DNA of 64,000 bases from assembly GCA_026706025.1 (NCBI GenBank), contig JAPOZO010000072.1:62001-126000 (forward strand), read 5' to 3'. Shown piece by piece: positions 48,378-64,000 of the stretch (positions are counted from its first letter, which is position 1; every line of letters starts with the position of its first letter). The notes under the pieces were generated by a model. The model searched no databases, had not been told where the DNA came from, and saw nothing but the letters and a program-made list of their open reading frames with translations. The position numbers and the translations under genes were made by a program. This stretch comes from Candidatus Poribacteria bacterium. Its GTDB lineage: Bacteria; Poribacteria; WGA-4E; WGA-3G.

Positions 48378-50957
48378 CTAACGTCTAAAACCGAGAAAAC
48401 GTCCCTGGATTTCCTTTTCAAAGATCCCCTTGGGAAATTGTGGATCATTGAGTCGAATAATAAGCGTATCCCGAACTGTTGTTTTCCCCAGTAAACTTAA
48501 TGTTTTCCTCAATTTTATAAGCCTCTCAATAGATTCACCAGGGCGGAGTGTGCGCTGCTGCGAAGTCAGATGTGATGAGAGGTAAAACCGCAGATTTTTA
48601 AAACGCACCTCAAATATCCGCAACTCAGTTTCACCGACATTGGTAACCACTAACGGTATACCACCAGATGGTAGATTGGTGCGCTGTATCTGAGTGTTAA
48701 CATCAATCCTTGCTTGACCTCCGATAAAATCTACCGCAAATTGAATTGGAAGTGACATACCAGATTTTTTGTCCTGAAGGTGTAAACTCTCAGAAACGCG
48801 TCCAATATCTTTGGCAGCCTGCGGATTAAGCACAAGTTCACAGCGTTCAGATATATTTGCTTCAGCACTATCGTCGACCTTCAATAATCCTGTCTGTTTT
48901 AACGTATCGGGTATTTCTACGCTACACACAACGTTGCCTTTACCATCACTACGTTTTATCGTAATACCAGCATACTGTGGATCATCAAACATAAACACTT
49001 TGGGAAAATAGAGTGCCGGTGGGTCTGAAACAAGGTGGACCATATCATATTTAGCATTGAAGCGATACACGCGACGGTTCGCGAGATAGCAGTCCGTAAC
49101 CAGGGACGCACGGATCTGTTTACGATAGGCATTAGAAGGTTTTTCACTCAACACTTGAACAAGCGGTGCAGCTGTCATCGGTTCAAATGCTGTTTCGTTT
49201 TGAACACGCAGATCTCCTTCTACAAAACGTAAGACAGTAGACGGCTGCACTTGCCCCTTCAGTTCGCCTTTACCAACGATGTCCAGCGTAAGCGGAATAC
49301 GCTCTACTTTGCCTTGTTCAATTTGCGGAAAAACCAATTCCTCATCTCGGAGAATTGGAACAGCCCCATTTGTCACCCCGATAGCATAAATAGGAGCAAG
49401 AAACGACCTTATAGGTTTCCTTTCAGATTCCAGCCGTATCCATCCCAAATTGAGCCCCGGTAAGAGGCATTCGGGTTGGATTATTGCAGTTACTTCTCGT
49501 TTTTTTCTTGCAGGAAGCACAAGCGTCTCAGGTTTAATACGCATCCAGTCAGTCAGAGATTGAAGTTTAAGCCCTATCTTCTGTTTAGACCTGTTTTGCA
49601 GTGTTACCTTTTGTTCAATACTATTGATCTGTATTTTGGATGCAACTCCGTGCTGACAGCAGACTATCTCGTATAACCGCGCAGGGTCAAGCCGCATTTC
49701 CCCATCAATTTCGGCACGATAAAGGTACATTCCTTCAGAAACGCTCAGTGTAATACCGAAGCCGTCATCTCTTTTTTCAAAAAACAGTGTACGCGGTGTC
49801 CATTGATTAAAATCACCCATGAGATAACCGATCCGCTCCTCACCTGTCAATGGAAATTGAAAATCTAAATCCTCAAAAATCATCACGGATTGATACGGTT
49901 CCTCTGTTGATGCGACAGTGATCGGCAAAGGTGTTTCTTGCTTATCGAAAACTTCAACATAGTGGATATCCGGCTGTTCTTTGTCTAACACCAACGCCGT
50001 TTCTTTGGCAATTTTATACCAGGCCCACACTGATATTTTTTTATCCGCCACACCAAGTTCCGAAACATTACGCCCCGGTTTCAGTTTTTCAATGTTTACA
50101 GAAATAGGTAAATCTGTCGTATCATATCCGTTAGTTTGGATTTGAGTCGGTGCAACTAACCGACCCGAATCCGATGTTGAAATTTGCGTTGATGACTTGT
50201 GTCGGTTAACATTCGGAACTGGAATGGTTTGTTGGAAATATTTTAGTGTAATCCCAGTCTTTTCTTGTCGCGGCATTACGACCCCTGGTTTCTGCAAATC
50301 TAATTCATAAGACAATTCACCTTTTGATGTGATTATCTTTGCATCAAAAGCGGATTCGTCTTTTTGTCTAATCTCAAGATGGGTTGGTGGGTAAAGTATA
50401 AAATCTCCGACAAGTAGAAATTCGGCTGTCGGTGCCACCGCATCTTCACGACTATCAGCAATTGAGACTTTATAGACAGTTATTTCACCAAAGTTGATAT
50501 ATTCGGGAAGTATCAAATGTGTAGATTGATTGTCTGGGGGATGAACACCTAATAATATCTTGCTAAACGTTTTTCGTTTTGAATTGGAAATGACGTTCAG
50601 TTCTGCTGTATTCACGGATGAAGGATTCGGTAGTGCTTTTAGTAAAAGTTCCAGTTCAAGCTCTACTGGTTCCGATGTCGGTGTAAGTGTAGCCCGTTTC
50701 GATCCTTGTGCCCTCTTTATCCACTCTCCATATACACGAGGAATACTAATTCGTTCTACATCTAACTTGCCACCGCCAACATTTGATACCATCACCTTTA
50801 CAGATTGGTTCGGATTATCAAACGTATCTAAATAGATGTTCGCATCAGTATAAAGGTACGGTTCATTAATCGGGGTAACTTTGAATGGAGGTTCTTCCGA
50901 TTCCGGTGCCATGGGTAGGTATAGCAAACTATGAATGTTTTTTAGATGATTAATCAT
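48378..50957 (-). CDS. Large beta-sandwich protein with Ig/ASH-like repeats and a CBM48-like module
   Basis: 859 aa from ATG 50957 (GAGG 9 nt upstream; TTG 51020 and ATG 50912 are alternatives). No signal peptide or membrane helix is obvious. Several domains of about 100 residues look like Ig/ASH (abnormal spindle, SPD-2, Hydin) folds: VMVSNVGGGKLDVERISIP, VTLQNRSKQKIGLKLQSLTD, PLVVTNVGETELRIFEVRF. In the middle (about 380-440) IGYLMGDFNQWTPRTLFFEK, DDGFGITLSVSEGMYLYRAE matches the AMPK/isoamylase-type CBM48 fold. Last intact gene of the minus-strand train. Similar Ig-type domains occur in the Hsp70-like protein at 55797. Role unknown. Confidence 0.65.
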   Translation of the reverse strand: MINHLKNIHSLLYLPMAPESEEPPFKVTPINEPYLYTDANIYLDTFDNPNQSVKVMVSNVGGGKLDVERISIPRVYGEWIKRAQGSKRATLTPTSEPVELELELLLKALPNPSSVNTAELNVISNSKRKTFSKILLGVHPPDNQSTHLILPEYINFGEITVYKVSIADSREDAVAPTAEFLLVGDFILYPPTHLEIRQKDESAFDAKIITSKGELSYELDLQKPGVVMPRQEKTGITLKYFQQTIPVPNVNRHKSSTQISTSDSGRLVAPTQIQTNGYDTTDLPISVNIEKLKPGRNVSELGVADKKISVWAWYKIAKETALVLDKEQPDIHYVEVFDKQETPLPITVASTEEPYQSVMIFEDLDFQFPLTGEERIGYLMGDFNQWTPRTLFFEKRDDGFGITLSVSEGMYLYRAEIDGEMRLDPARLYEIVCCQHGVASKIQINSIEQKVTLQNRSKQKIGLKLQSLTDWMRIKPETLVLPARKKREVTAIIQPECLLPGLNLGWIRLESERKPIRSFLAPIYAIGVTNGAVPILRDEELVFPQIEQGKVERIPLTLDIVGKGELKGQVQPSTVLRFVEGDLRVQNETAFEPMTAAPLVQVLSEKPSNAYRKQIRASLVTDCYLANRRVYRFNAKYDMVHLVSDPPALYFPKVFMFDDPQYAGITIKRSDGKGNVVCSVEIPDTLKQTGLLKVDDSAEANISERCELVLNPQAAKDIGRVSESLHLQDKKSGMSLPIQFAVDFIGGQARIDVNTQIQRTNLPSGGIPLVVTNVGETELRIFEVRFKNLRFYLSSHLTSQQRTLRPGESIERLIKLRKTLSLLGKTTVRDTLIIRLNDPQFPKGIFEKEIQGRFLGFRR

Positions 50958-51013
50958 AAACCTATGCCTCAAGGCGTGCAGGTTCCCTATTGCTCTACGC
51001 AACTTACAAATAA

Positions 51014-52066
51014 CTACCAATCTAACGGACTTTTTGATTCCTGTGTATCATCATATTGTGTATTATCATCGTGCCAATCGTCATCATCGTCCGCGAAGAC
51101 GAAACGGTAAACTACATACGCAATCGGTATTCCCAAACCAATGAGAATAAAGAGCGTTGCAATTACCATACCCACTGCACTATTTGTCTTTGAGGCATCC
51201 TTCTTATTAGGTTTAGGCTTTTCAGGTTCAGGTTTCGGTTTCACGGGTTCAGGCTTTGGTTGGATAGGTGGTGTTTCCAGTGTAGGCTCCGGTATAACGG
51301 GTGTTGGTTCTGTCTCTGGTGTGGGTGTCGTTACCTTGTCAGGTTTCGGTGCGGGTCCCACTTTAGAAGGGCTTAACGGGACAATTGCCTCTACAGTTTT
51401 TCCGACAGACGCAGGGAGTGCGCCAACAGTCCAACCCGTCCCAGTCGTTTCACAATAGAAGTACTTTATGCCGTTGTAGGTCAACGATGATCCTGTGAAG
51501 TCTCCACTGACACCAATCGCAATGTGTCCAGGCGTAAAAATCAGGGCAGTCTCTTCTCCTAATCCGCGCAGAATAGCCCCCACCAAGATCGTTGTATCTT
51601 CGCAGTCGCCGCCCCCTTCAATCAACGTTTCAACGGCATATCGTCTAAATTCATCATAACCTGTCGTTACATCATCAAGGGTATATGGTAAGGATTGGAC
51701 AAAACTTAAGACGAAATCAACGTGATCCTGCCGTTTCCAGTTGCGATTTTGCTTGAAGATGCGTTGAAACTCACGCGTCAGATTGCCGATCGTTGTTCTA
51801 CCCTCTTCGACCAATTTGGGAATATCGTAGCGTTCTTTGCCGGAGTATGAATTATACTTTTCCAGATCAATTGTCATCAGGACAGTGTAGGGTTTACCCT
51901 TAAAGTTCCACACATACCGCCGCCCGATTGTCTGGCGAGTATTGGGAGGGCGTTGTTGTGCTATACCCTCTACAATCCTGACAAAACTGAGGGCATCATT
52001 TGCAATAGCATCTGCATTGATAAGCAGTCCAGTGACAAGCAGAACGATAAGGAGTCTGATGGACAT
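51014..52066 (-). CDS. Membrane-anchored transglutaminase-like cysteine protein
   Basis: 350 aa. Signal peptide 1-22 (MSIRLLIVLLVTGLLINADA). Transglutaminase-like domain about 95-230 with the catalytic triad pattern Cys155 (GGGDCEDTTIL), His181 (TPGHIAIGV) and Glu206 (YFYCETTGTGW). A Pro/Glu/Lys-rich linker (230-300) leads to a membrane helix (MVIATLFILIGLGIPIAYVV) and a very acidic tail. The catalytic domain should be outside the cytoplasm and the tail inside. GGAG for this gene lies in the last codons of the preceding GrpE-like gene. Could be a protease or cross-linking enzyme. Confidence 0.78.
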   Translation of the reverse strand: MSIRLLIVLLVTGLLINADAIANDALSFVRIVEGIAQQRPPNTRQTIGRRYVWNFKGKPYTVLMTIDLEKYNSYSGKERYDIPKLVEEGRTTIGNLTREFQRIFKQNRNWKRQDHVDFVLSFVQSLPYTLDDVTTGYDEFRRYAVETLIEGGGDCEDTTILVGAILRGLGEETALIFTPGHIAIGVSGDFTGSSLTYNGIKYFYCETTGTGWTVGALPASVGKTVEAIVPLSPSKVGPAPKPDKVTTPTPETEPTPVIPEPTLETPPIQPKPEPVKPKPEPEKPKPNKKDASKTNSAVGMVIATLFILIGLGIPIAYVVYRFVFADDDDDWHDDNTQYDDTQESKSPLDW

Positions 52067-52069
52067 GTT

Positions 52070-53155
52070 CTATTCTCCGCGTATTACTACCGGCTTCTGT
52101 ATGATTTCACCATCTGCTACACGCCTAAGACCTGGTAAAATAACCTCAACAACAGTTCCACATTCTCCATTGGTTTGCCGTGAGCCTTGAATGTCATGTA
52201 CACGGGCATCCGCTTGCGTTTTGCCTATCTCAATCGGGACGACTTCATAACCAACGAGTTGTAGGCACTGCTCTAATTGTTCAGGCAGTTGGTCAGATGC
52301 AGTAAACCTTGCTACACCGTTGAATAGTCTATCTTTGATAAATTGCGATATGAATTGGTCGTATTCTTCTGAGTTTTCTTGTTCACACTCGGTAATGGTT
52401 TTCAATTTTTCTTTGAAGGCTTGCTCTGAATACCGCAACGTTTGAACGAGATCCCGATTTGCTGCGTAGGATTGTTCTAATTCAGTTATCCAATCCCGTA
52501 TAGTATGTTCTATCTGGTTTACAATTATCGGTTCTTCTTCAGTTAACGTGATATTTTCATTTTCAACAAATTCGATCAGTTTGTCATCTTGGGTAACTTC
52601 CTCTAATCCAATCTCATGTTCCGTTTTATCCAGATAAGTCGTCTCTGTTTCTTGCCGAATATCGGTTGAAATTTGTATTTGTGTGTTGTCTGTTTCCTTT
52701 TCAGGTTCTGTTTCCTTGGGTATAGTAATCTTCGGGTGGTATTCTGTTTCTTGTTTTGCAACTGGCGATTTGATTTCAACCTGTGGGGACTTAGTAATCA
52801 CTTCTTTTTCTGTTTCATTTAGTAATTCCTTTAAATCCAAATCAGAAGTTGAACTCTGTTTTCTACCGTCAAGGCGACAATAGAATTCTATCCATTTCAT
52901 AAATCCTTCAGGCAATTTCAAGGTATGCGTCTCGCCACTAAATAGCTGAACACACTCCATTAAAACCGTGCCACTGTTACTGGCTTTCCGACAGTGAATA
53001 AAAATCCGTTCTTGGTTATCCCCACAGTTTTCCAATATGAGAATTACTTGATCACTGTCTGACTGGAGTGAAATATTAATATCTCCGATTTTACCCGAGT
53101 GTGATGAAGTGTCTCTATTGTCAATAGCACCAAGTTTTATCATTTCCTGTCTCAT
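52070..53155 (-). CDS. Soluble protein with C-terminal GrpE-like domain (paralogue 2)
   Basis: 361 aa, no membrane helix. N-terminal beta domain about 10-95 (GDINISLQSDSDQVILILEN), a Thr/Glu-rich middle (about 110-220) and a C-terminal domain (about 265-361): EYDQFISQFIKDRLFNGVAR, EQCLQLVGYEVVPIEIGKTQ, ADARVHDI, GTVVEVILPGLRRVADGEII, QKPVVIRGE. The last part has the layout of the GrpE beta-wing (family pattern D-P-x-x-H then GTV..V...GY.....vLRPA.V.V). The C-terminal 95 residues are nearly identical to those of the gene at 53160. ATG 53155 has GGAGAG upstream, 4 bp after that gene's stop. Confidence 0.7.
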   Translation of the reverse strand: MRQEMIKLGAIDNRDTSSHSGKIGDINISLQSDSDQVILILENCGDNQERIFIHCRKASNSGTVLMECVQLFSGETHTLKLPEGFMKWIEFYCRLDGRKQSSTSDLDLKELLNETEKEVITKSPQVEIKSPVAKQETEYHPKITIPKETEPEKETDNTQIQISTDIRQETETTYLDKTEHEIGLEEVTQDDKLIEFVENENITLTEEEPIIVNQIEHTIRDWITELEQSYAANRDLVQTLRYSEQAFKEKLKTITECEQENSEEYDQFISQFIKDRLFNGVARFTASDQLPEQLEQCLQLVGYEVVPIEIGKTQADARVHDIQGSRQTNGECGTVVEVILPGLRRVADGEIIQKPVVIRGE

Positions 53156-53159
53156 GCAG

Positions 53160-54473
53160 TTACTCTCCACGAATCACTACCGGTTTCTGTATGATTTCAC
53201 CGTTATCTATTCGCTGCAATCCGGGTAAAATGACCTCAACAACAGTTCCAGGCTCGTCATTGGTCTGCTGTGAACTTTGAATCTCATGTATACGGGCATC
53301 CGCTTGCGTTTTGCCTATCTCTATAGGAACAACTTCGTAGCCCACAAGCCGTAAATATTCATCCAATTGTTCAGGCAGTTGGGCAGATTTGACAAATCTT
53401 GCTACACTATTGAATAGCCTATCTTTAACGAAATGCGGAATGAACTGGTCATATTCTTTCGCTTCTATTTCACATCCCAGTTGAAGTCCAATCAGAAGCC
53501 CTTCATAACGCGACACATAAGCGATACACTTATTTTGGAATTCGTTATACGCCGCATCTGTATTGACATCAGTTTCCAATTCAGGAGGTTCTGGCACAGG
53601 TGGTGCCGGTCCACGAATCTCTTTCAGTTTGTCTTTAATAACCTGATTCCCATATCCAAGCGTTTGAATGAGCTCTGGGTTCGCGGTGCCAGATTGTTCT
53701 AAATCATCTTCCCAATCCTCTATTGAGCGCGCCATCCAATTCAATATCTGCAATGTAGTTTGACTGGGGGTTGGATCTTCAATATCAATCCAATCAATTG
53801 GTTCTCCATTTTCGTATGTCTGGACTAATGACTCAACTTGCGTTCGCGTTTCTTGGCTAATCCCCTCCAATTGCAGTTGTTCATCAACAGTTTCATCTGG
53901 CACTTTGTCCAAATCCAAATTCATTAATGTAAGCTCAAAACCATCTAAACGGTTTCCGAGTTTAGATAAAGCGTTCTGGAAATTTTTCTGTTCATCGTGA
54001 AGTTGGGAATAGTTTGATACTGTTTCCTCTATTTTTTCAGTATTGTCTTTGCCTTGTCGACGAATATGTTTTAATTGCCCCTCCCAACGTTGATTGATTT
54101 CGTTCAATCTATTCTGCCACCCTCGTTCGCTATTTTCAAATTCGTTTTGCAGCTGACGAATTTTCCGCATACTTAGAAAAAACATTACCACAATTGTTAG
54201 GACGATGATTGCACCAAAAATCATAGCATAAGTTTGGAACGGATTGTCTAACGAATCTTGTAAGGCAGAGAGCTCATGTTTCAATTCCGTGATTTGTTTT
54301 TCTAAGGAGTTGACATGAGACTCTAAAGGGTTTAGTGTTTCAGAGGGCTGCTCAACAAGACTCGGTTCGTCGTTTGACTGTTCCGAAGCGTCCTGTGAAT
54401 ACACAAGGGGGGTTACTCCAACAAGTATCAGTGCCAATAAAAATAGAACATATCTGAATTGATGTATTTTCAT
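53160..54473 (-). CDS. Membrane-anchored coiled-coil protein with C-terminal GrpE-like domain (paralogue 1)
   Basis: 437 aa from ATG 54473 (GAGGG just upstream; ATG 54485 possible). Signal peptide-like N-terminus (FRYVLFLLALILVGVTPLVY), a short extracytoplasmic coiled coil (ESHVNSLEKQITELKHELSA), a membrane helix (TYAMIFGAIIVLTIVVMFFL), then cytoplasmic coiled coils (about 100-190), a Pro-rich linker and the GrpE-like domain (about 340-437: VKDRLFNSVARFVKSAQLPE, VGYEVVPIEIGKTQADARIH, GTVVEVILPGLQRIDNGEII). GrpE is the exchange factor of DnaK. Two Hsp70-family genes lie directly upstream, so this may be a membrane-bound exchange factor for them. Confidence 0.72.
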   Translation of the reverse strand: MKIHQFRYVLFLLALILVGVTPLVYSQDASEQSNDEPSLVEQPSETLNPLESHVNSLEKQITELKHELSALQDSLDNPFQTYAMIFGAIIVLTIVVMFFLSMRKIRQLQNEFENSERGWQNRLNEINQRWEGQLKHIRRQGKDNTEKIEETVSNYSQLHDEQKNFQNALSKLGNRLDGFELTLMNLDLDKVPDETVDEQLQLEGISQETRTQVESLVQTYENGEPIDWIDIEDPTPSQTTLQILNWMARSIEDWEDDLEQSGTANPELIQTLGYGNQVIKDKLKEIRGPAPPVPEPPELETDVNTDAAYNEFQNKCIAYVSRYEGLLIGLQLGCEIEAKEYDQFIPHFVKDRLFNSVARFVKSAQLPEQLDEYLRLVGYEVVPIEIGKTQADARIHEIQSSQQTNDEPGTVVEVILPGLQRIDNGEIIQKPVVIRGE

Positions 54474-54527
54474 TTTTTCCCTCATAAAGAAGCGCAATGA
54501 ATTGTGCTACTACAAGCAAGTTTTGTC

Positions 54528-55784
54528 TTAATCCATCAAAACTGGCACGGTAAATTCAACCGATCTCGTCTCTTGTGAATTTGGGAGATGTAAAGCAAAT
54601 GTGCCATGCGTAGCATCATTCAAGGTAACAGAAAGTATAAATTCCATTGGACTGTTTAATGTATACTTTTTATTCTCCTGCGGGACAATTTTAAGCGTAG
54701 CAAGATGAAACACATCACTGTTTTCTGTCATAGATAAACCACAGTAAAGATGAACATCGAATTCTGTAACATCACCCGTGACGCGAAAGGCTTTTTTCCG
54801 GTGATAGGGCGGTGTCCATGTATTCGGGACAAGTTCAACCTTTTTTCCATCAGGTAAACGCACCCCGAAGCAGAAATGATAGACAAAATGGAGCGGTTTT
54901 TCAAGATTTTTCTCTTCAAATTGCCGCACCAATTCTGCCCCGCCCAAGAGCGTTGCGGTTTCCTGTGGGTCAAGAAATGTTGCGCTGCAGCGCGCTTGCA
55001 ACAATTCAATGAATTTTAGAGCAGTATCGTCAATTCTGCCAGAAAAACCGACTACAACGTGTTGCTCGTCCACAACCTGTTGCAACATCTTTTGCACATC
55101 TGAAACCTTTTCATCTGTATCTACGAAGAAGTCAATAAACCGCAGTATATCGGTCAACTCTATTATAACACTACTCTCCAATTGACTACAATTCGTCCGA
55201 TAAACTACAAAATCATTCTGCGCAAAATCTACCAGAAACAGATGGCATTTGTTTGCGTCAGCGAGTATATTCGCCCACGCCTTCTGATAATATACCGAAA
55301 TACATAGTGTTTGACTGAGCACACTCCGCAGTGTCACGTTTGATGTCTTGAGAAATGGTACCGATACATCACTTTTTAAACGCTTGAATGTTTTTCTGAG
55401 CTGCCGGCGATGTATAGGTTTCCACTGATACGGCGTAATCGCGTATACCGACATCGCTTCAATTGGATATCCATGCTGTGGTAGCTGCCGATGAAAAATT
55501 TCTTCAAGAAATGCAGTAAATAAACATTCCAAGGTTTTTTCATCTGTGATTTCCTTGAAATGCGTGTCTAAATTGGGAAACCGAACTTCCACCGGATGGT
55601 TTGAGCTGAGACGTTCAAATGCTTCTCCAAAACAGGGAACTAATGTGTCTTTGTTTTCCTGACGAAAACCGATCTCCCATGGTAGACTGAGATTGATGTC
55701 TTTTAGTTGATTGTCAACTAAAACAACTACCTGAATTTCAGGTGCTGATAGATTGATGATGCATACGCGTTTTGACATTGGCAT
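54528..55784 (-). CDS. Degenerate Hsp70-like protein (pseudo-ATPase with substrate-binding beta domain)
   Basis: 418 aa. The order of landmarks follows Hsp70: YAITPYQWKPIHRRQLRKTF resembles VITVPAYFNDxQRxATKxA; LFLVDFAQNDFVVYRTN stands where LVYDLGGGTFDVSI is expected, but the GGGT phosphate loop is lost; VVVGFSGRIDDTALKFIELL corresponds to VLVGGSTRIPxVQxLL; then LLGGAELVRQF. From about 300 (FGVRLPDGKKVELVPNTWTP, FDVHLYCGLSMTENS, LATLKIVPQENKKYTLNSP) it resembles the Hsp70 substrate-binding beta-sandwich. The N-terminal phosphate-1 loop DxGTT is also missing. Probably no ATPase activity. 12 bp downstream of the intact Hsp70-like gene. Confidence 0.62.
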   Translation of the reverse strand: MPMSKRVCIINLSAPEIQVVVLVDNQLKDINLSLPWEIGFRQENKDTLVPCFGEAFERLSSNHPVEVRFPNLDTHFKEITDEKTLECLFTAFLEEIFHRQLPQHGYPIEAMSVYAITPYQWKPIHRRQLRKTFKRLKSDVSVPFLKTSNVTLRSVLSQTLCISVYYQKAWANILADANKCHLFLVDFAQNDFVVYRTNCSQLESSVIIELTDILRFIDFFVDTDEKVSDVQKMLQQVVDEQHVVVGFSGRIDDTALKFIELLQARCSATFLDPQETATLLGGAELVRQFEEKNLEKPLHFVYHFCFGVRLPDGKKVELVPNTWTPPYHRKKAFRVTGDVTEFDVHLYCGLSMTENSDVFHLATLKIVPQENKKYTLNSPMEFILSVTLNDATHGTFALHLPNSQETRSVEFTVPVLMD

Positions 55785-55796
55785 CCTATTGTATAT

Positions 55797-58496
55797 TCAA
55801 ATTTCATTTACAAATTCTGGCTCTCTCCTCTCAACTGTAGATTCATATTCATGATTATCCACAAGTGCCACCACTTTAATTTCCCCATTCTCTTTAACCG
55901 CCATTTTCAAACACGCATTCTGTAATGCCTCTCTCGGTATATTCTCAGGTAACGTTAGAGTGTAATCGTCAATGCGTGACAGTTCATCATTTGTTCTAAA
56001 ACGTTCACGAATATCAATATTAGTTTCTCCTTCACTCAGCAGGATATTCACTCTACCGAAACTTTCGTCAGGAATAAGCCTTCCTTTGGGAATAATTTCT
56101 TCAAAAACCAGTTGTCTACCATCGGACTGCATTATACCGATGCTGGCGTGTGTCTTGCGGAAGTTTTTAATTTCAAACCGAACTCTACTCGGTGATGAGT
56201 GAGTCATACCGTATTGCGCTGCACCTATTGCGACGCATTCTTTCGGTGAATCGCTGAGTTCGATATCAATATCATCGGTTTGGTATTCCTGTTGGAAGTG
56301 GGTTGTCATCATCTCCTTAACCATGGGCATTTTTGATGATTGACCTGCAAGTATCACGATTTCAGGCAGGTGTCCACCATTTTCTCTAATCATAGCGTCA
56401 ATATCAGCAAAGGTCTGGCGTAATTCATTGGCAACAAGTGAATGTAATTGTTCTTTTGAAATACTTACGTTAATGTCCCCTCGGGTAAGATTTTCAAGCG
56501 GGCGGGTATCATTTCCAACAATCACGTTCAAAGGAAAGTCACGGTTTGCTTCATCTTCATCGCTTAGTTCTTTTTTCAATTCCTCTGCTCCATTATACAA
56601 ACGGGACGTGTTAAATAGTTTTGCTCTATCCTCTCTTTGATCTCCTAAACTTTGCCATATTTCTCTCGGACTTAGGTATGGGATCTTATAACGAAGATTT
56701 AAACTTTCTCTTTCAATTCGTTGTCCAAATTCAGCCAACACAAAGTCAACAATTGCCTGAGTTACATCATCACCACCATATTTGGGATTTCCGCCGTGTG
56801 CAAGCGGTTCAATTGTGATTTCGCGACCATTATTGGTTACTTGTGAAAGAACGATATCGATAGTCCCACCGCCGAAATCATAAACCAACAGTCTATAATC
56901 GCCTTGTTGCCTTCGTTGAGAAATAGCCCCGAGTGAAGCCGCCGATGCTTCATCAATGAATATAAGATCGGTGATCCCGACTTTTTCAAACGCCTGTTTT
57001 ATGTCTTCTTGTTGTTTTCTATTAAACATTGTCGGATAGGTAATCACACATTTTTTAATTCTTGATCTTGTTGAGAGAGTGTCCAAGTGTTCTTCGGCAC
57101 GTTGAATAATATGTCTGAGTATATCAGCAACTACATCCCTTGGTTGCAATTCCAGATTGTTAGGAAATTGGCGTCTCCAGTTATATCCTAACCACCTTTT
57201 TACGGAACTGATGTAGTAAGGACCATCAATTTCGCTCGTGCGAGCGGTCTCTGCTCCATAACCAACTTCGTATACATCCCCATTTGTAGGCTGACTGTGA
57301 TAGATAATTGAGGAAGGTATGATATTCAAAGGATCTTCGCTGTTCAATTGGATAAGTTGGAAAACATCTTCAGCCCCAAAATAAGCACAACACGAACTCG
57401 TTGTGCCAAAATCAATAGCGAGGTAATGCGGGTACGCTTCCAGTTCTTCAACATTTACATTCAGGCCCCCTTCATATGTTGGATCATCCCCACAATTGGA
57501 GTTTATAGTAAAGTTAACAGGATAAGTTTTGGGATCAATACCAATGGCAGAAACCTGTATTTCAATATTATGGTGTTCTCCACCTTCAATATTTATAGGG
57601 AACTCAAGGTTTGGCAGCTGGACTAATTTGGAAGGACCGTTGAATACAATATTCCGAATTGTCAACGGACGTTCGCCTCTGTTCTCAAGCGTTAAGGGAT
57701 GTGTTTTCTCGCGATCCTGTGTGATGTCCAGGTTCATTGGTGGCACGAACAGTTTTGGCGGTTCTGGTTCTATCTCTCTTCGGATGTGAACTTGTTTGTC
57801 AATAGGTTGGGAAAAGCCACGGAGTTCAAAACTTAGTTTTACTACATTTACTTCGTCGCTGAGTTGGTTGCAGTCAATCTCCAAACGGACTTTTTTCAAC
57901 GCGTTGTTTTTTTCATGGAGGCTTTCAAAATAACCAACGCGAAGAATTGATCCGCCTGTGATTTTAATATTGGTGATATAAAATTTACCCTGTAGCACTT
58001 CAAGGTGGAGGTCTTTCGTCACCTTTTTCGTTCCTCTCCGATAACGAACCTCTATAGGATTTGGGGGCAGTTTAAATTCAGGACGTAATGAAGCCTCAAG
58101 ACGTAGTGATTTTTCGCTTTCAAAATTCGATGGAGCATCTTGAGCGCGCACAGTAATGGTTTTGGGATTTTGTGCTAATTTTGCGGGCTTTACCTGAATC
58201 GGCACTGCATGGAATTGACCCGCCTCAACCTCAAAAGGACTGTCATTCGCTTGTGGAAATAGAATTGTGTCATCCCTTGTCGTTTGAATCGGATGGAATG
58301 TAATCGGATAGGCACCGGTGTTTTCTACGAGAATAGCAAAGGCATGGATATTCGCACCGCTATCTGCGTAAATCAACGGCTCTTTTTCCCATCTCACCGA
58401 GAAATCAAAGACTTTACAACCACAATAACCACAATGTTTATCATGCGAATGAATTACCCAACCGACATTGCATTTTGAACAGATAGGGTCAGCCAT
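55797..58496 (-). CDS. Hsp70-family ATPase with N-terminal zinc ribbon and Ig-like domains
   Basis: 899 aa. Residues 6-27 form a zinc ribbon (C6xxC9, C22xxC25). About 30-350 are two or three Ig/CARDB-like sandwiches (AILVENTGAYPITFHPIQT, LTLENRGERPLTIRNIVFNG). The Hsp70 domain starts at about 358: phosphate-1 AIDFGTTSS (360-366), VITYPTMFNRKQQEDIKQA, phosphate-2 VYDFGGGTIDIVL (about 540), adenosine motif IVILAGQSSKMPM (about 717), AIGAAQYG. A substrate-binding beta domain follows (GIMQSDGRQLVFEEIIPKGR), with a short C-terminus lacking a full lid. All ATPase loops look intact. Its RBS AAGGAG lies inside the last codons of the tubulin-like gene, so the two are translationally linked. Confidence 0.85.
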   Translation of the reverse strand: MADPICSKCNVGWVIHSHDKHCGYCGCKVFDFSVRWEKEPLIYADSGANIHAFAILVENTGAYPITFHPIQTTRDDTILFPQANDSPFEVEAGQFHAVPIQVKPAKLAQNPKTITVRAQDAPSNFESEKSLRLEASLRPEFKLPPNPIEVRYRRGTKKVTKDLHLEVLQGKFYITNIKITGGSILRVGYFESLHEKNNALKKVRLEIDCNQLSDEVNVVKLSFELRGFSQPIDKQVHIRREIEPEPPKLFVPPMNLDITQDREKTHPLTLENRGERPLTIRNIVFNGPSKLVQLPNLEFPINIEGGEHHNIEIQVSAIGIDPKTYPVNFTINSNCGDDPTYEGGLNVNVEELEAYPHYLAIDFGTTSSCCAYFGAEDVFQLIQLNSEDPLNIIPSSIIYHSQPTNGDVYEVGYGAETARTSEIDGPYYISSVKRWLGYNWRRQFPNNLELQPRDVVADILRHIIQRAEEHLDTLSTRSRIKKCVITYPTMFNRKQQEDIKQAFEKVGITDLIFIDEASAASLGAISQRRQQGDYRLLVYDFGGGTIDIVLSQVTNNGREITIEPLAHGGNPKYGGDDVTQAIVDFVLAEFGQRIERESLNLRYKIPYLSPREIWQSLGDQREDRAKLFNTSRLYNGAEELKKELSDEDEANRDFPLNVIVGNDTRPLENLTRGDINVSISKEQLHSLVANELRQTFADIDAMIRENGGHLPEIVILAGQSSKMPMVKEMMTTHFQQEYQTDDIDIELSDSPKECVAIGAAQYGMTHSSPSRVRFEIKNFRKTHASIGIMQSDGRQLVFEEIIPKGRLIPDESFGRVNILLSEGETNIDIRERFRTNDELSRIDDYTLTLPENIPREALQNACLKMAVKENGEIKVVALVDNHEYESTVERREPEFVNEI

Positions 58497-58501
58497 ACTC
58501 G

Positions 58502-61500
58502 CTACTCCTTCTTCCGAGTGCCTTTACGCTGCAATGTCTGTTTCACATCCACATCTTTAACCGAGAATCCTGTAGAAGGCTGTTTCTCCTGTTCATCAGT
58601 TTTAGGCTGTGGTTGCTGCTCTGCAGGAGACTCTTCGCCCGTCGTGTCCTCTGCGGAACTGTGTTCCGTTTCAGGTGTTGCCTCAGACCACTGATATTCA
58701 TCTGTAGTCGCATCTGGTGTGCTGTGTTCTGATAGTGAGTCTTGTGGTGGTCCCGCATTATCTTGGTTAAATGATCCAGTATCAATCTCGCTTTCCTCGG
58801 AAGCAGCTTCTTCATAAGAATCTGAGCCTACTGGTGCGTTTGTAGCATTTCCGTTGCCGACATCTTGGGATGATGTTGAAGGTGCGTCGTCCGATGCTTG
58901 GGATGGAGTTTTCTGATGTATTTGGGGCGGTGGCTGGAAAAAGGTTGACCCCGATATTGAGTCAGAACCGGTATTATCTATAGAAGCATCCTCAGAGTAG
59001 ACATCATCTAAAAACCGACGGAAAAATTGACTTATATTTGCGTGTTCATTGTTGTCTTGAATTTCCCTCAACAATGAATCAATAAGTTTCTCAACCTTTT
59101 GACGGTTTAGCTGCGTGAAACATGAACGGACTGCATTGATAAATTTGTTATACTCAACTTCATTTTTCTTCTGCGAAAACCTTTTAATTCCATCCGGATC
59201 ATTATGCAAGTCGAGTCGCTCGGATAATCCATCAACGTTATATTCATAAACATATCCGTTCTTAGTCTGAAAAAAAACACTGGCAAATGCATCTTCTTTT
59301 ATCTTCTGACATATTTCAGGAACGATCCTTCCTAAAGCACGACACCATTGTTGTAGTTTTTGGATTTTGTCGTATAGCTCAAGGTTATAAAAGTCGGCAT
59401 CCTTATGAGTTGAATGTCCATATTCCCCTGGAGTCTGCCGGCATTTATCAGCAAGTGTTGAGTGAGAAACCAAGTCATCTAAGGCAAAACCTGCTTCCTC
59501 TTGATAGAAAAAAAGGAGATGATCCACAGAAGAGGGACTTATTTCAAACAAGAATCCTTTACCACTTAAACTGTTGTTTAAGTCAGTTAAAGCCTTCCCT
59601 ATGTGTCCGAAGATAATATTTGGTGAATCCTCAACGACAAACGGTATGTACATAGGGGTGAACATTTGATATGGGTTTGAGCGGCCGGCAAGATTCTGGA
59701 TGTCGGAACTTCCTGAATCTAAAAGTTCCTGAGCCTTTGTAACCACATCATTAACTTGAATTCGATCTAATGATAGTTGTCGGTAAGTTTCAGTCATCTG
59801 AGTGATTATGTCTGCCTGTTCTTTTCCTAAAAATGTAGCCATAGATTCTCCGCGGAGCAATTCAATACCTTCATCTGATTGGGCGATCTGGTGGCTCAGT
59901 GTCGATGCATCTATATCAATTCGATTTTCTGAGTTATTCGCAACAATTTTCACACATTCAGATCTTGGTGGATTGATAGCTTCATTACGTTCGCTCTTGA
60001 ATTCCTGAAGGCAGTTATTTAGATTCGCTTCTATCTGATCCAATCGCTGTTTAATGGTTCGACGACGGTTCGGTTCACCTCCATCCATCGGGGTTACTCC
60101 AAAACCGAGGTCGGTGCGAATTTCTTGTAAAATCGGTTTTATGAAATGATTCCGAACTGACTCATAGAAACTTGTTGGACTTCCGATAATCAAACTACAA
60201 TACCCCTTAACCATGTTATCGCGATGTGCTTTAACCGAATCATCCCGAAGAAAAATAAGTTTCAACCAAAGATTATTATCCGCCCTCTCCATTCGGGAAA
60301 AATCCAATTTATCTAAATTTAAAGTCGGCATCCGATCAGGGCAATTTTGTATAGAGTTTTCTATCTTTTTATCAAGCGTTTCAAAGAACATCCTCACATC
60401 GCCCAAGCCCCACGTTCCCTCAAAATCAATACTTCCTAATTGATTGTTCAAAGTTTGTTCAATCGCCTCGCTAAGTGCCTTTTTGCACTCAGGCACTTGC
60501 ATATTCATCAACTCAACATACTCTCCACCTTGCTCAAATTTCTTTCTGAATGAATCCCCGATTGGAAACTCCTCCATATTCCGATTTAATTGATTGGATG
60601 AGATTTCTGTATTGAGCCATTGCTTCCTGGCATTTGCAAGATGTGTATCAATGCGACTCTTAATTGATGATTGTCCATCTGGGCTGGTTAATGTATCTAT
60701 ATTCGCGTTTAGAATCCGATTCCATTCCGTTTCTGCGTCTTTTACAGTCGTGGCTTGAGGGATGTGTGATTCTAGCCAGTTATTACATAATTTTTCGCCG
60801 ATTGAACAAGCAGCAGCACTTGCGATGCGATATTTGGGATACCATACAGCAGTTAATCCAAAACTCGCCATATATCGTATCATTGTGCGGATTTCGCCTT
60901 CTCTCACAGGTTTTAAGGTCCCAAAATCAGCATGAGCTGTATAATTGGTGCGGATTGCATTTTTCACTCCACCTGTGTCTGCAGCAGATTCAGCAAAAAG
61001 ATTCAGTGCTACCATCAAGTTCAGACCGTGTTCATCAAAGTCACCAGCCCCTGTTGAGAATTGGTTGCCCGCAATTTTTCCGCTGGGCGATACAAACAGC
61101 GTATAATCAAACGGCTTTTCTCGCATATTCTTAATCTGCCGCCCATCTGGAAAAGTTATATCATAAGTTGTTTCCTGATGATGATAGTAATTTAACTCCG
61201 AAAGGCTTGCATAACAATTGGCTGAACGTATGTTAAACATAGCATCTGGTCTCGCAGCATGGTTCTCGTCGAACATTGTAAAAATGCCATTAATTCTTGA
61301 TTTATCGCCATAGGCACTGAGAAGGTATCGGAAAAAATATCCAACATCAATAAGCATCCCACTACAGGAACCACCGCAGAGAGACCCTAGCACATAAACT
61401 CTGATGGAGCCTGTATCGTCAAGGGGATGTTCTGCAATTTTTTTACGTTCTGTTAGAATATTGATCGCTTTCCGTTTCGTAGCGGGTGCCATAATAGCAC

Positions 61501-61909
61501 CGATCGCGTTGGCAAATGTAGCTTGGACATCAGACCAGTTTTCCCATAAACACAATCTACCTGCCATACGTATATTTGAAGCTCCATCCATAAAACCGCC
61601 TGCTTCAATTTTCAAGAGTTCAGGATCTAGCCAGTCCACTAAATCTGGGTTGTGCAGCGGTTCTCCTGGAGTCAACTTAAGTCGAATCGGACTAACGTTT
61701 GGAATCGTTGCCCTTATAAGATTGATTCGTTCATAATCATCCATTTGATTTGTATTTTGCACATTCACTTCACCATGTGTCTCAATGGCAATATAGCGGA
61801 AAAGTGGTAGCCCCGCGTGTCCGTATTCTTCAGACATAAGTTCACGTAATTTTACTAAAATTTCCTTCCCGGTTGTTCCGAGGCCAACAAATATTGTAGG
61901 TGTAATCAT
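58502..61909 (-). CDS. Tubulin/FtsZ-superfamily protein (Tub_2-like) with acidic C-terminal tail
   Basis: 1135 aa. N-terminal MITPTIFVGLGTTGKEILVK carries the first nucleotide-binding loop (GLGTTG, 9-14). GSLCGGSCSGM at 175-185 is the tubulin signature loop (GGGTGSG equivalent), followed by LIDVGYFFRYLL. FDYTLFVSPSG and STGAGDFDEHGLNLMVALNL fit the rest of the GTPase domain. This is the pattern of the bacterial tubulin-like (Tub_2) family. A long helical middle follows (about 370-990), then a Ser/Thr/Glu/Asp/Pro-rich tail (about 1000-1110) and a basic end (QTLQRKGTRKKE). The start is ATG 61909, preceded by GGAGGAG; an ATG at 61924 is in frame but contains that RBS. Likely a GTP-dependent polymer. 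Confidence 0.85.
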   Translation of the reverse strand: MITPTIFVGLGTTGKEILVKLRELMSEEYGHAGLPLFRYIAIETHGEVNVQNTNQMDDYERINLIRATIPNVSPIRLKLTPGEPLHNPDLVDWLDPELLKIEAGGFMDGASNIRMAGRLCLWENWSDVQATFANAIGAIMAPATKRKAINILTERKKIAEHPLDDTGSIRVYVLGSLCGGSCSGMLIDVGYFFRYLLSAYGDKSRINGIFTMFDENHAARPDAMFNIRSANCYASLSELNYYHHQETTYDITFPDGRQIKNMREKPFDYTLFVSPSGKIAGNQFSTGAGDFDEHGLNLMVALNLFAESAADTGGVKNAIRTNYTAHADFGTLKPVREGEIRTMIRYMASFGLTAVWYPKYRIASAAACSIGEKLCNNWLESHIPQATTVKDAETEWNRILNANIDTLTSPDGQSSIKSRIDTHLANARKQWLNTEISSNQLNRNMEEFPIGDSFRKKFEQGGEYVELMNMQVPECKKALSEAIEQTLNNQLGSIDFEGTWGLGDVRMFFETLDKKIENSIQNCPDRMPTLNLDKLDFSRMERADNNLWLKLIFLRDDSVKAHRDNMVKGYCSLIIGSPTSFYESVRNHFIKPILQEIRTDLGFGVTPMDGGEPNRRRTIKQRLDQIEANLNNCLQEFKSERNEAINPPRSECVKIVANNSENRIDIDASTLSHQIAQSDEGIELLRGESMATFLGKEQADIITQMTETYRQLSLDRIQVNDVVTKAQELLDSGSSDIQNLAGRSNPYQMFTPMYIPFVVEDSPNIIFGHIGKALTDLNNSLSGKGFLFEISPSSVDHLLFFYQEEAGFALDDLVSHSTLADKCRQTPGEYGHSTHKDADFYNLELYDKIQKLQQWCRALGRIVPEICQKIKEDAFASVFFQTKNGYVYEYNVDGLSERLDLHNDPDGIKRFSQKKNEVEYNKFINAVRSCFTQLNRQKVEKLIDSLLREIQDNNEHANISQFFRRFLDDVYSEDASIDNTGSDSISGSTFFQPPPQIHQKTPSQASDDAPSTSSQDVGNGNATNAPVGSDSYEEAASEESEIDTGSFNQDNAGPPQDSLSEHSTPDATTDEYQWSEATPETEHSSAEDTTGEESPAEQQPQPKTDEQEKQPSTGFSVKDVDVKQTLQRKGTRKKE

Positions 61910-61958
61910 CGCATGCTCCTCCATATTTAGTTAAAGATTCCGTTAACATCAGTTTTCA

Positions 61959-62354
61959 TCACTTCTTTTTTGGATTAAGAGATTTACCAACTGGTTTTGG
62001 AGTCGGCGCGTCAGTGTTCTTTTTTTCTTTATTTTTCTTTAACAGTGTATACAATAAACAGACATTAACAAGCATAATCACTATATAGAATAACAGATAA
62101 AGTACTGTATACAACCCTTCAGAAAATCGGTTATGTGCTCTGTCCCAAAGCCAGATTAGAAGCACCGTTCCACCGAGTATATGTATAAAAAGTGCAATTC
62201 CCCACGCTATTGCTGCCGCACGCTCAATACTTACTTGGTTCTTAAATAGATGACCAAGTCCACATGCAATTATCCATACAAAAGAATAACCAATGAAGTA
62301 GACAACTGCTGGCCAAACCAACGGATCTCCAAAAAAATCAGCGATGCTTTCCAT
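61959..62354 (-). CDS. Small membrane protein (four helices) with basic C-terminal tail
   Basis: 131 aa. Hydrophobic segments at about 13-33 (VWPAVVYFIGYSFVWIIACG), 46-70 (AAIAWGIALFIHILGGTVLL) and 80-105 (LYTVLYLLFYIVIMLVNVCL), with a possible fourth near 62-72. The tail is Lys/Pro rich (KKNKEKKNTD, NPKKK) and predicted cytoplasmic. No family recognised. It lies 49 bp upstream of the tubulin-like gene and may be its membrane partner. RBS AAAGGAAAAGGGG ahead of ATG 62354. Confidence 0.65.
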   Translation of the reverse strand: MESIADFFGDPLVWPAVVYFIGYSFVWIIACGLGHLFKNQVSIERAAAIAWGIALFIHILGGTVLLIWLWDRAHNRFSEGLYTVLYLLFYIVIMLVNVCLLYTLLKKNKEKKNTDAPTPKPVGKSLNPKKK

Positions 62355-62620: not shown

Positions 62621-64000
62621 TCATACATCAAGGGGATTGGTATCAGAAGCGTTATTCGACCAAATAATAGGTTCATCATCGTCCTCTGGTTTGTTAGAAG
62701 TGTTATCCACTATCTCACAGTTAATACGGATCTCATCATCGTCATCACCTTGATTTAACATTAGTATTTCGGGTAAATCTAATATCCGTCCTTCATCGTC
62801 GTCAGCATCTGCAAATAGCAGTAAATTTTTCTTATCGCAATATAAAAAAGCCTCACTACCAATATCAAACTGCAATTCATCAGGACCCCGAGGACCAAAT
62901 TCAAGTGTCATTTTATTTTTAAGCATAAAATATGCTTTCTCACCCAACGGTGTACCTGCCTGGCTGACTTGAGTCAACCCAATGTGATGGGCAATTTGAT
63001 ACGGAATTAAACGGCGAATTAAAAGAAAAAGAATTACACTTAAAATCGGAATAAGGAACACCCACAGCAGCCACATCGGGAAGCCGCTGCCACCACCTAT
63101 CAGTTTATAAGGAATCTCAATTGTCGCAGATTTAGTTTCATTTTCATATTTATAGTCTATTTCAAGGACAATTTTGTTGCCGCGCCAATCCAATCGGTCT
63201 CGTTTAGGCACTACCATGCTAAAAGGTTCGCCTAAACGTTCACCTACTTTCGGTACAGTAACGTCACAAAGTTTTCGCCCATCTTTGTATTGGACCTGAC
63301 AACGAAGTTGATCTATCCTAAAAGCCTTTTTGTTATAACTTTCGCTCTGAACAGCAAGACCAACATGGTATGTGTCTTCCGAAAAGTTCAGATTCAATTC
63401 CTTTGTCTGCTGTTCAGAATTATCCAAATTAGACACATATATACTATCAATCCTCGGTGTATATTTGATAGGTTGGGGTGAATGGATTTTGTTTTTACCG
63501 TTGAAACTGTAGGTAATTTCAAGTTTCAATGCGTTGCCAGGAGCAGCTATTTCCCTATGTGCAGGAAATAGGATGCGGAACTCGAATGGTGGAGGGTTTC
63601 CATGAAGTGAAACAGATGGGACTTCAACAACACCAAATGTGTTCTCTTCAGTCACAATCTGAAGCGGTTTGTTAAACTTATCCACAATTTCCACATTGAC
63701 ACTGTCGAGTTTAAATTTAGGTTTCTTGGAATTGTGCGTCTTAACAGTTAAGGTTTCACTGATAAATTTCCCTTCATCATCTCTGTCAAGTTGAATCTCT
63801 CGCACTCGTTTTCCTAGTTCTGTTGATGTAGCGAGGAAAATCGAGTCAATTACGTCGCTCTTCTGAAGTTTTCTGACTTGAATTCTAACGTGTTTATTTA
63901 CAAGCATACTAAAAATCATTGGTGAATGGAACTCATCTTCAATTTCCGCATGTCGCTTTAACACTTCAGATATGCCAGGGTCGCTTTTGCCGCTGTTATC
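62621..64000 (-). CDS. Membrane protein with beta-sandwich domains, N-terminus beyond window edge
   Basis: The frame is open from the stop at 62621 to the window edge (459 codons). A GTG at 63964 could be read as a start, but the frame continues upstream (SGKSDPGISEVLKRHAEIED), so the gene is probably longer. About 25-290 are beta-rich, Ig-like segments (FEFRILFPAHREIAAPGNAL; NKIVLEIDYKYENETKSATI). One membrane helix follows (FPMWLLWVFLIPILSVILFL), then a cytoplasmic part with a beta domain and a strongly acidic tail. Related gene sets often contain a VWA protein; whether this one has a VWA domain cannot be seen from here. Confidence 0.65.
   Translation of the reverse strand, partial: DNSGKSDPGISEVLKRHAEIEDEFHSPMIFSMLVNKHVRIQVRKLQKSDVIDSIFLATSTELGKRVREIQLDRDDEGKFISETLTVKTHNSKKPKFKLDSVNVEIVDKFNKPLQIVTEENTFGVVEVPSVSLHGNPPPFEFRILFPAHREIAAPGNALKLEITYSFNGKNKIHSPQPIKYTPRIDSIYVSNLDNSEQQTKELNLNFSEDTYHVGLAVQSESYNKKAFRIDQLRCQVQYKDGRKLCDVTVPKVGERLGEPFSMVVPKRDRLDWRGNKIVLEIDYKYENETKSATIEIPYKLIGGGSGFPMWLLWVFLIPILSVILFLLIRRLIPYQIAHHIGLTQVSQAGTPLGEKAYFMLKNKMTLEFGPRGPDELQFDIGSEAFLYCDKKNLLLFADADDDEGRILDLPEILMLNQGDDDDEIRINCEIVDNTSNKPEDDDEPIIWSNNASDTNPLDV

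Follow-up and report, generated by a model that had tools for sequence, protein, structure and literature searches.

A predicted membrane-tethered GrpE-like protein and its soluble paralogue encoded with an Hsp70 in a poribacterial FtsZl1 operon

In a genome of the sponge-symbiont Poribacteria, two adjacent genes, P0001 and P0002 (hereafter designated copy A and copy B), encode proteins whose closely similar C-termini had been read, from the letters and open reading frames alone, as GrpE-like domains placed on unrelated N-termini, one of them membrane-bound. The locus raises the question of whether these domains are indeed GrpE and, if so, whether they serve the Hsp70 encoded in the same operon. 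GrpE is described in a review (PMC4753570) as the exchange factor of DnaK, without a membrane anchor, and a membrane-tethered GrpE-like factor would be an unusual way of fixing the working site of an Hsp70. No membrane-bound GrpE was found in a literature search by title and term that covered few subscription papers. The window analyzed here, that is, the whole stretch of 64,000 nucleotides (G000:C72:62001-126000), lies within a 6.3-Mb genome, and the relatives compared with it are Candidatus Poribacteria MAGs.

Both genes belong to an eight-gene operon on the minus strand, which runs in a single direction with short gaps from 62354 down to 48378 in the order of a 131-residue membrane protein, the FtsZl1 protein, a zinc-ribbon/Ig/Hsp70 protein, a 418-residue protein, copy A, copy B, a LapG-like protein, and an 880-residue protein (Table 1). 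The operon Hsp70 shares with Hsp70 of PF00012 the ATPase domain, located at about residues 355–760, but differs in its N-terminal zinc ribbon and Ig-like domains and, in one relative, in a GrpE-like C-terminal fusion; no signal peptide was seen in it. The 418-residue protein was considered as a degenerate Hsp70, a reading that profile comparison with the operon Hsp70 did not support (prob 0.4). Upstream of the operon, partly or wholly beyond the window, are encoded a protein with a DVSGSM sequence, a 455-residue protein, an OmpA-domain protein that lies just past the window end (PF00691, E 4.8e-16; G000:C72 about 127919-128554), and a coiled-coil protein resembling MotA/ExbB. A VWA domain in the first of these is hinted at by the DVSGSM, a VWA-like MIDAS motif recognized by eye, but the protein has no Pfam VWA match.

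The cluster resembles the FtsZl1/VWA/OmpA systems, for which membrane remodelling has been proposed (Makarova and Koonin 2010; PMC2875224), in that a Tubulin_2 protein is combined with OmpA and membrane proteins, but differs from them in that Hsp70 and GrpE-like genes belong to the operon; the main text of that paper makes no mention of Hsp70, DnaK, or GrpE. No link between FtsZl1 and Hsp70 was found in the literature searched, mostly without subscription papers, and no Hsp70 was found beside Tubulin_2 at seven loci in six genomes of other lineages. Among the cluster genes scanned with Pfam, neither the diverged GTPase nor the protein kinase of the FtsZl1 system was detected. An anti-phage defence system was also considered and rejected, as PADLOC gave coiled-coil matches only.

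Table 1 Features of the operon and its flank, in window positions
Feature	Position	Strand	Basis or remark
C-terminal part of larger protein extending beyond window end; N-terminal DVSGSM	62621..63964	-	
Small hydrophobic membrane protein, 131 aa, operon member	61959..62354	-	
FtsZl1 / Tubulin_2 protein	58502..61924	-	PF13809 E 5.7e-41
Operon Hsp70: zinc ribbon, Ig-like domains, ATPase domain, short C-terminal beta region	55797..58496	-	PF00012 E 5e-33
418-aa operon protein, directly before copy A	54528..55784	-	No family match
Copy A (P0001), predicted membrane-tethered GrpE-like protein, 445-aa ORF; likely ATG 54473	53160..54497	-	
Signal peptide of copy A (MKIHQFRYVLFLLALILVGVTPLVYS)	54396..54473	-	Hydropathy; conserved in A-type relatives
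TM helix of copy A, residues 92-110, then RKIRQ	54168..54224	-	KD 2.75
Coiled-coil region of copy A	53928..54167	-	Pfam coiled-coil matches
GrpE-like module of copy A (residues 195-445), six helices + beta head	53163..53915	-	AF2, Foldseek, hhalign
Beta head of copy A (residues 376-445)	53163..53372	-	
Copy B (P0002), soluble GrpE-like protein, 366-aa ORF; likely ATG 53155	52070..53170	-	
N-terminal beta-sandwich of copy B, residues 24-100	52871..53101	-	Homologous to ~550-aa protein N-terminus
T/E-rich disordered linker of copy B, residues 132-209	52544..52777	-	pLDDT < 50
GrpE-like module of copy B (residues 212-366), 45-residue deletion	52073..52537	-	
Secreted/TM protein, weak LapG / transglutaminase-like similarity	51014..52066	-	Kept in operons
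880-aa protein	48378..51020	-	Weak AMPK1_CBM model match

The GrpE reading of the two C-termini is largely right, as judged from sequence comparison and structure prediction. Residues 195–445 of copy A gave an AlphaFold2 model (pLDDT 90.5, pTM 0.83) for which Foldseek ranks 1–10 against the PDB were all GrpE or GRPEL1 (E 4e-4 to 0.08, prob 0.95–1.00), the next match having E 0.54 and prob 0.04 and none beyond rank 10 exceeding prob 0.08, with the caveat that GrpE is among the training structures of AlphaFold2; the full model of copy B again matched GrpE. A fold other than GrpE was thus looked for with model and Foldseek and was not found. Whole-chain TM-scores were low (best TMt 0.45) because the helix arrangement differs, whereas the head of copy A alone superposes well on GRPEL1 (2.2 A over 71 columns). 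The profile–profile comparison with GrpE, proposed at the outset as a check, aligned 31 members of the family with 18 canonical GrpE sequences collinearly over 120 columns (hhalign prob 79, E 1.5e-5). Copy A itself scored 13.6 bits (E 0.054) against Pfam GrpE, below the PF01025 gathering score of 25.8 bits, and copy B had no Pfam match, but two homologues of about 550 residues exceeded the cut-off with 29.6 and 29.2 bits. GrpE was not recovered by searching PDB sequences with the family profile, because the family is too divergent.

The head is the best-conserved part of the module and keeps the GrpE-like DxRxH, GTVVEV, G-L loop, and QKPVVI elements. The basic ENxKKRxxRE motif of the long N-terminal helix, present in most canonical proteins, is absent from all 30 members compared, which are therefore regarded as a divergent GrpE branch. 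In the GrpE of M. tuberculosis, basic residues of the long helix touch both the ATPase and substrate domains of DnaK and matter for refolding (PMC10803776). The likeness to GrpE of PF01025 thus lies in the head fold, the histidine and GTVxEV / V-V motifs, and the collinear helix–helix–head order, while the differences are the N-terminal membrane anchor or beta-sandwich, the missing ENxKKR, and the three additional helices that precede the GrpE-like part in the copy A model. A further difference is that both proteins are encoded with the operon Hsp70; the canonical grpE sits elsewhere in the same genome, and copies A and B are thus extra copies.

The original prediction placed the similarity of the two proteins in the last 95 or so residues, which are indeed alike, but the shared region is larger and starts well upstream: residues 199–366 of copy B and 234–445 of copy A are identical at 105 of 213 positions (blastp, E 1e-58). 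The common module comprises a helical part and the beta head, about 240 residues in both copies in most relatives and operons; in copy B of the window the helical part has a 45-residue deletion relative to other copies, which masked the helical similarity in the earlier reading. The two gene junctions are alike, as had been claimed, with end codons CGn-GGA-GAr in both and a Shine–Dalgarno-like GGAGA just 5' of the next ATG. At 52070-52080 and 53160-53170 of the window, the codons for the conserved C-terminal RGE also serve as this GGAGA.

The N-termini were confirmed to differ between the two copies in the way described before: copy A carries the signal peptide, TM helix, and coiled coil listed in Table 1, and copy B has no hydrophobic segment, its beta-sandwich and disordered linker being seen in the model. 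All eight A-type proteins whose N-terminus is intact are predicted to have a signal peptide and a single TM helix, flanked by basic residues towards the GrpE-like domain, in agreement with membrane anchoring of copy A. By the positive-inside rule, basic residues flanking a TM helix mark the cytoplasmic side; the GrpE-like domain of copy A should therefore face the cytoplasm, which is predicted to be the side of the Hsp70 as well. The beta domain of copy B, unrelated to the N-terminus of copy A, is not without relatives, for it has a homologue in the beta domain of the ~550-residue protein (hhalign prob 93.5, E 2.3e-7). This soluble protein, consisting of a beta-sandwich, a linker, and the GrpE-like module, is encoded in almost all genomes of the family (L032:195-1880, L091-L105), and its gene adjoins that of a PLP-dependent enzyme in the loci checked. 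A plausible history is that an ancestor of the 550-residue type was duplicated and that copy A exchanged the beta domain for an anchor.

Copy A or B occurs in 9 of the 85 genomes of the phylum, namely those bearing the operon. Copy A was found in all nine operons (cut by a contig end in G041) and copy B in seven, while the full-length 418-residue gene, strictly tied to the operon, is present in the same nine genomes as the A-type proteins. In a far relative, G083, a membrane-anchored GrpE-like protein (L157:8802-10358), which matches canonical GrpE with phmmer (8e-8, small test set) and hhalign (1e-4), is encoded directly after a 418-like gene, and a zinc-ribbon/Hsp70 protein is on another contig. 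For some genes the window operon is nearer to its counterpart in G066, a member of a different family, than to congeneric operons (Tubulin_2, 77% versus 64–65%), suggesting horizontal transfer; plasmid or phage carriage gave no match.

The connection with Hsp70 is drawn by gene fusion. In G049 (L038:7240-10869), the C-terminus of the operon Hsp70 carries a third copy of the module, which ties the GrpE-like domain to this Hsp70 (the fusion is seen in L038/L090, in the latter at L090:4291-7917), and a genome of the same genus encodes another Hsp70–GrpE fusion (L160:4331-6310; PF00012 E 1.5e-105, PF01025 E 2.6e-9). Taken together with the GrpE fold and homology, the co-occurrence of A-type and 418-residue proteins, the conserved anchor and topology, the separate canonical grpE, and the G083 protein, these fusions make it probable that copies A and B serve the operon Hsp70 as dedicated nucleotide exchange factors of a divergent GrpE type, with copy A anchored in the membrane. 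Against this reading speak the missing ENxKKRxxRE motif, the score of copy A below the Pfam cut-off, the lack of any Pfam match for copy B, the null PDB profile search, the low TM-scores, and the lack of a recognized J-domain protein in the operon.

Part of these observations would also be explained if the head were a docking module only, holding the operon Hsp70 at the membrane without exchange, with copy A as anchor or scaffold and copy B as adaptor. The loss of the basic motif, the extra helices, the deletion in the helical part of copy B, and the coiled coils, which suit scaffolding, all fit such a role, but it is precisely the head that is best conserved and retains its GrpE-like motifs, and we regard this main rival as rather unlikely. 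That a GrpE-derived domain has lost Hsp70 binding and acquired a new partner, such as FtsZl1 or another operon protein, is quite improbable: the large divergence from canonical GrpE and the family-wide ~550-residue member, whose observed neighbours include no Hsp70 gene, would agree with it, but one relative has the domain fused to its operon Hsp70, and Hsp70 is present in every operon seen in full.

GrpE domains were also seen in other settings among the relatives. At L159:5239-7600, a small stand-alone GrpE of 255 aa (PF01025 E 1e-11) is encoded directly beside its own Hsp70, and the PF01025 and PF00012 match lists suggest such pairs in several genomes. Large Hsp70 proteins of about 1250 residues with weak EVE-like and HEAT-like matches occur in two relatives (L161:4799-8608, L162:5448-9179). 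Large GrpE-containing ORFs were set aside as UvrD helicase fusions and are a separate matter; in these (L107:4110-9134, L108:4062-8075, L109:2354-5680), a UvrD helicase is combined with a GrpE domain whose score clearly exceeds the Pfam cut-off, with a GIY-YIG match in two of the three and S1 repeats following in two of the three, and the neighbouring genes include additional UvrD helicases or a DNA methylase that carries a restriction-like domain.

The suggested partial tandem duplication is borne out by A/B pairs that are adjacent in seven of the nine operons; in at least one, the heads have undergone gene conversion. In G066, identity between the two copies is 94–98% over their last ~160 bases, as against 66–68% just upstream, and agreement at four-fold sites drops from 26 of 27 in the head to 13 of 22 in the helical segment (Fisher p 0.003); by these figures the 3' end is a gene-conversion tract. 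The heads in the window agree at 15 of 27 four-fold sites, the copies being older than in G066. Such homogenization is compatible with a shared Hsp70 partner, but conversion alone explains it. Its tract in G066, the absence of copy B from two of nine operons, and the deletion in the window copy might be taken to mean that copy A alone is functional and that conversion preserves the sequence of copy B, a duplicate in decay; this is highly improbable given the intact frame in seven operons, the conserved head, and the conserved N-terminal domain common to the 550-residue family.

On the preferred exchange-factor reading, the anchor of copy A would lie in the inner membrane and its GrpE-like head would face the cytoplasm, and release of ADP, hence of client, from the operon Hsp70 would occur preferentially at the membrane, at a site that would adjoin the FtsZl1/OmpA/ExbB-like assembly encoded by the same cluster. 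Copy B would be the soluble version, with the beta-sandwich replacing the anchor, and may act in the cytosol or may instead form heterodimers with copy A through the common helical part. A more far-reaching proposal, which we put forward tentatively and hold to be possible but doubtful, is an Hsp70 machine with an exchange factor built into the inner membrane, a soluble paralogue for mixed dimers, and heads that gene conversion keeps fitted to one Hsp70; chaperone cycling in this machine might thereby be tied in space to a complex of tubulin-like type that spans the envelope. A membrane-tethered GrpE serving one operon Hsp70 would mean that bacteria can localize the reset step of Hsp70, beyond the J-protein step, and the poorly understood FtsZl1 membrane systems would be tied to chaperone cycling, giving them a testable biochemistry.
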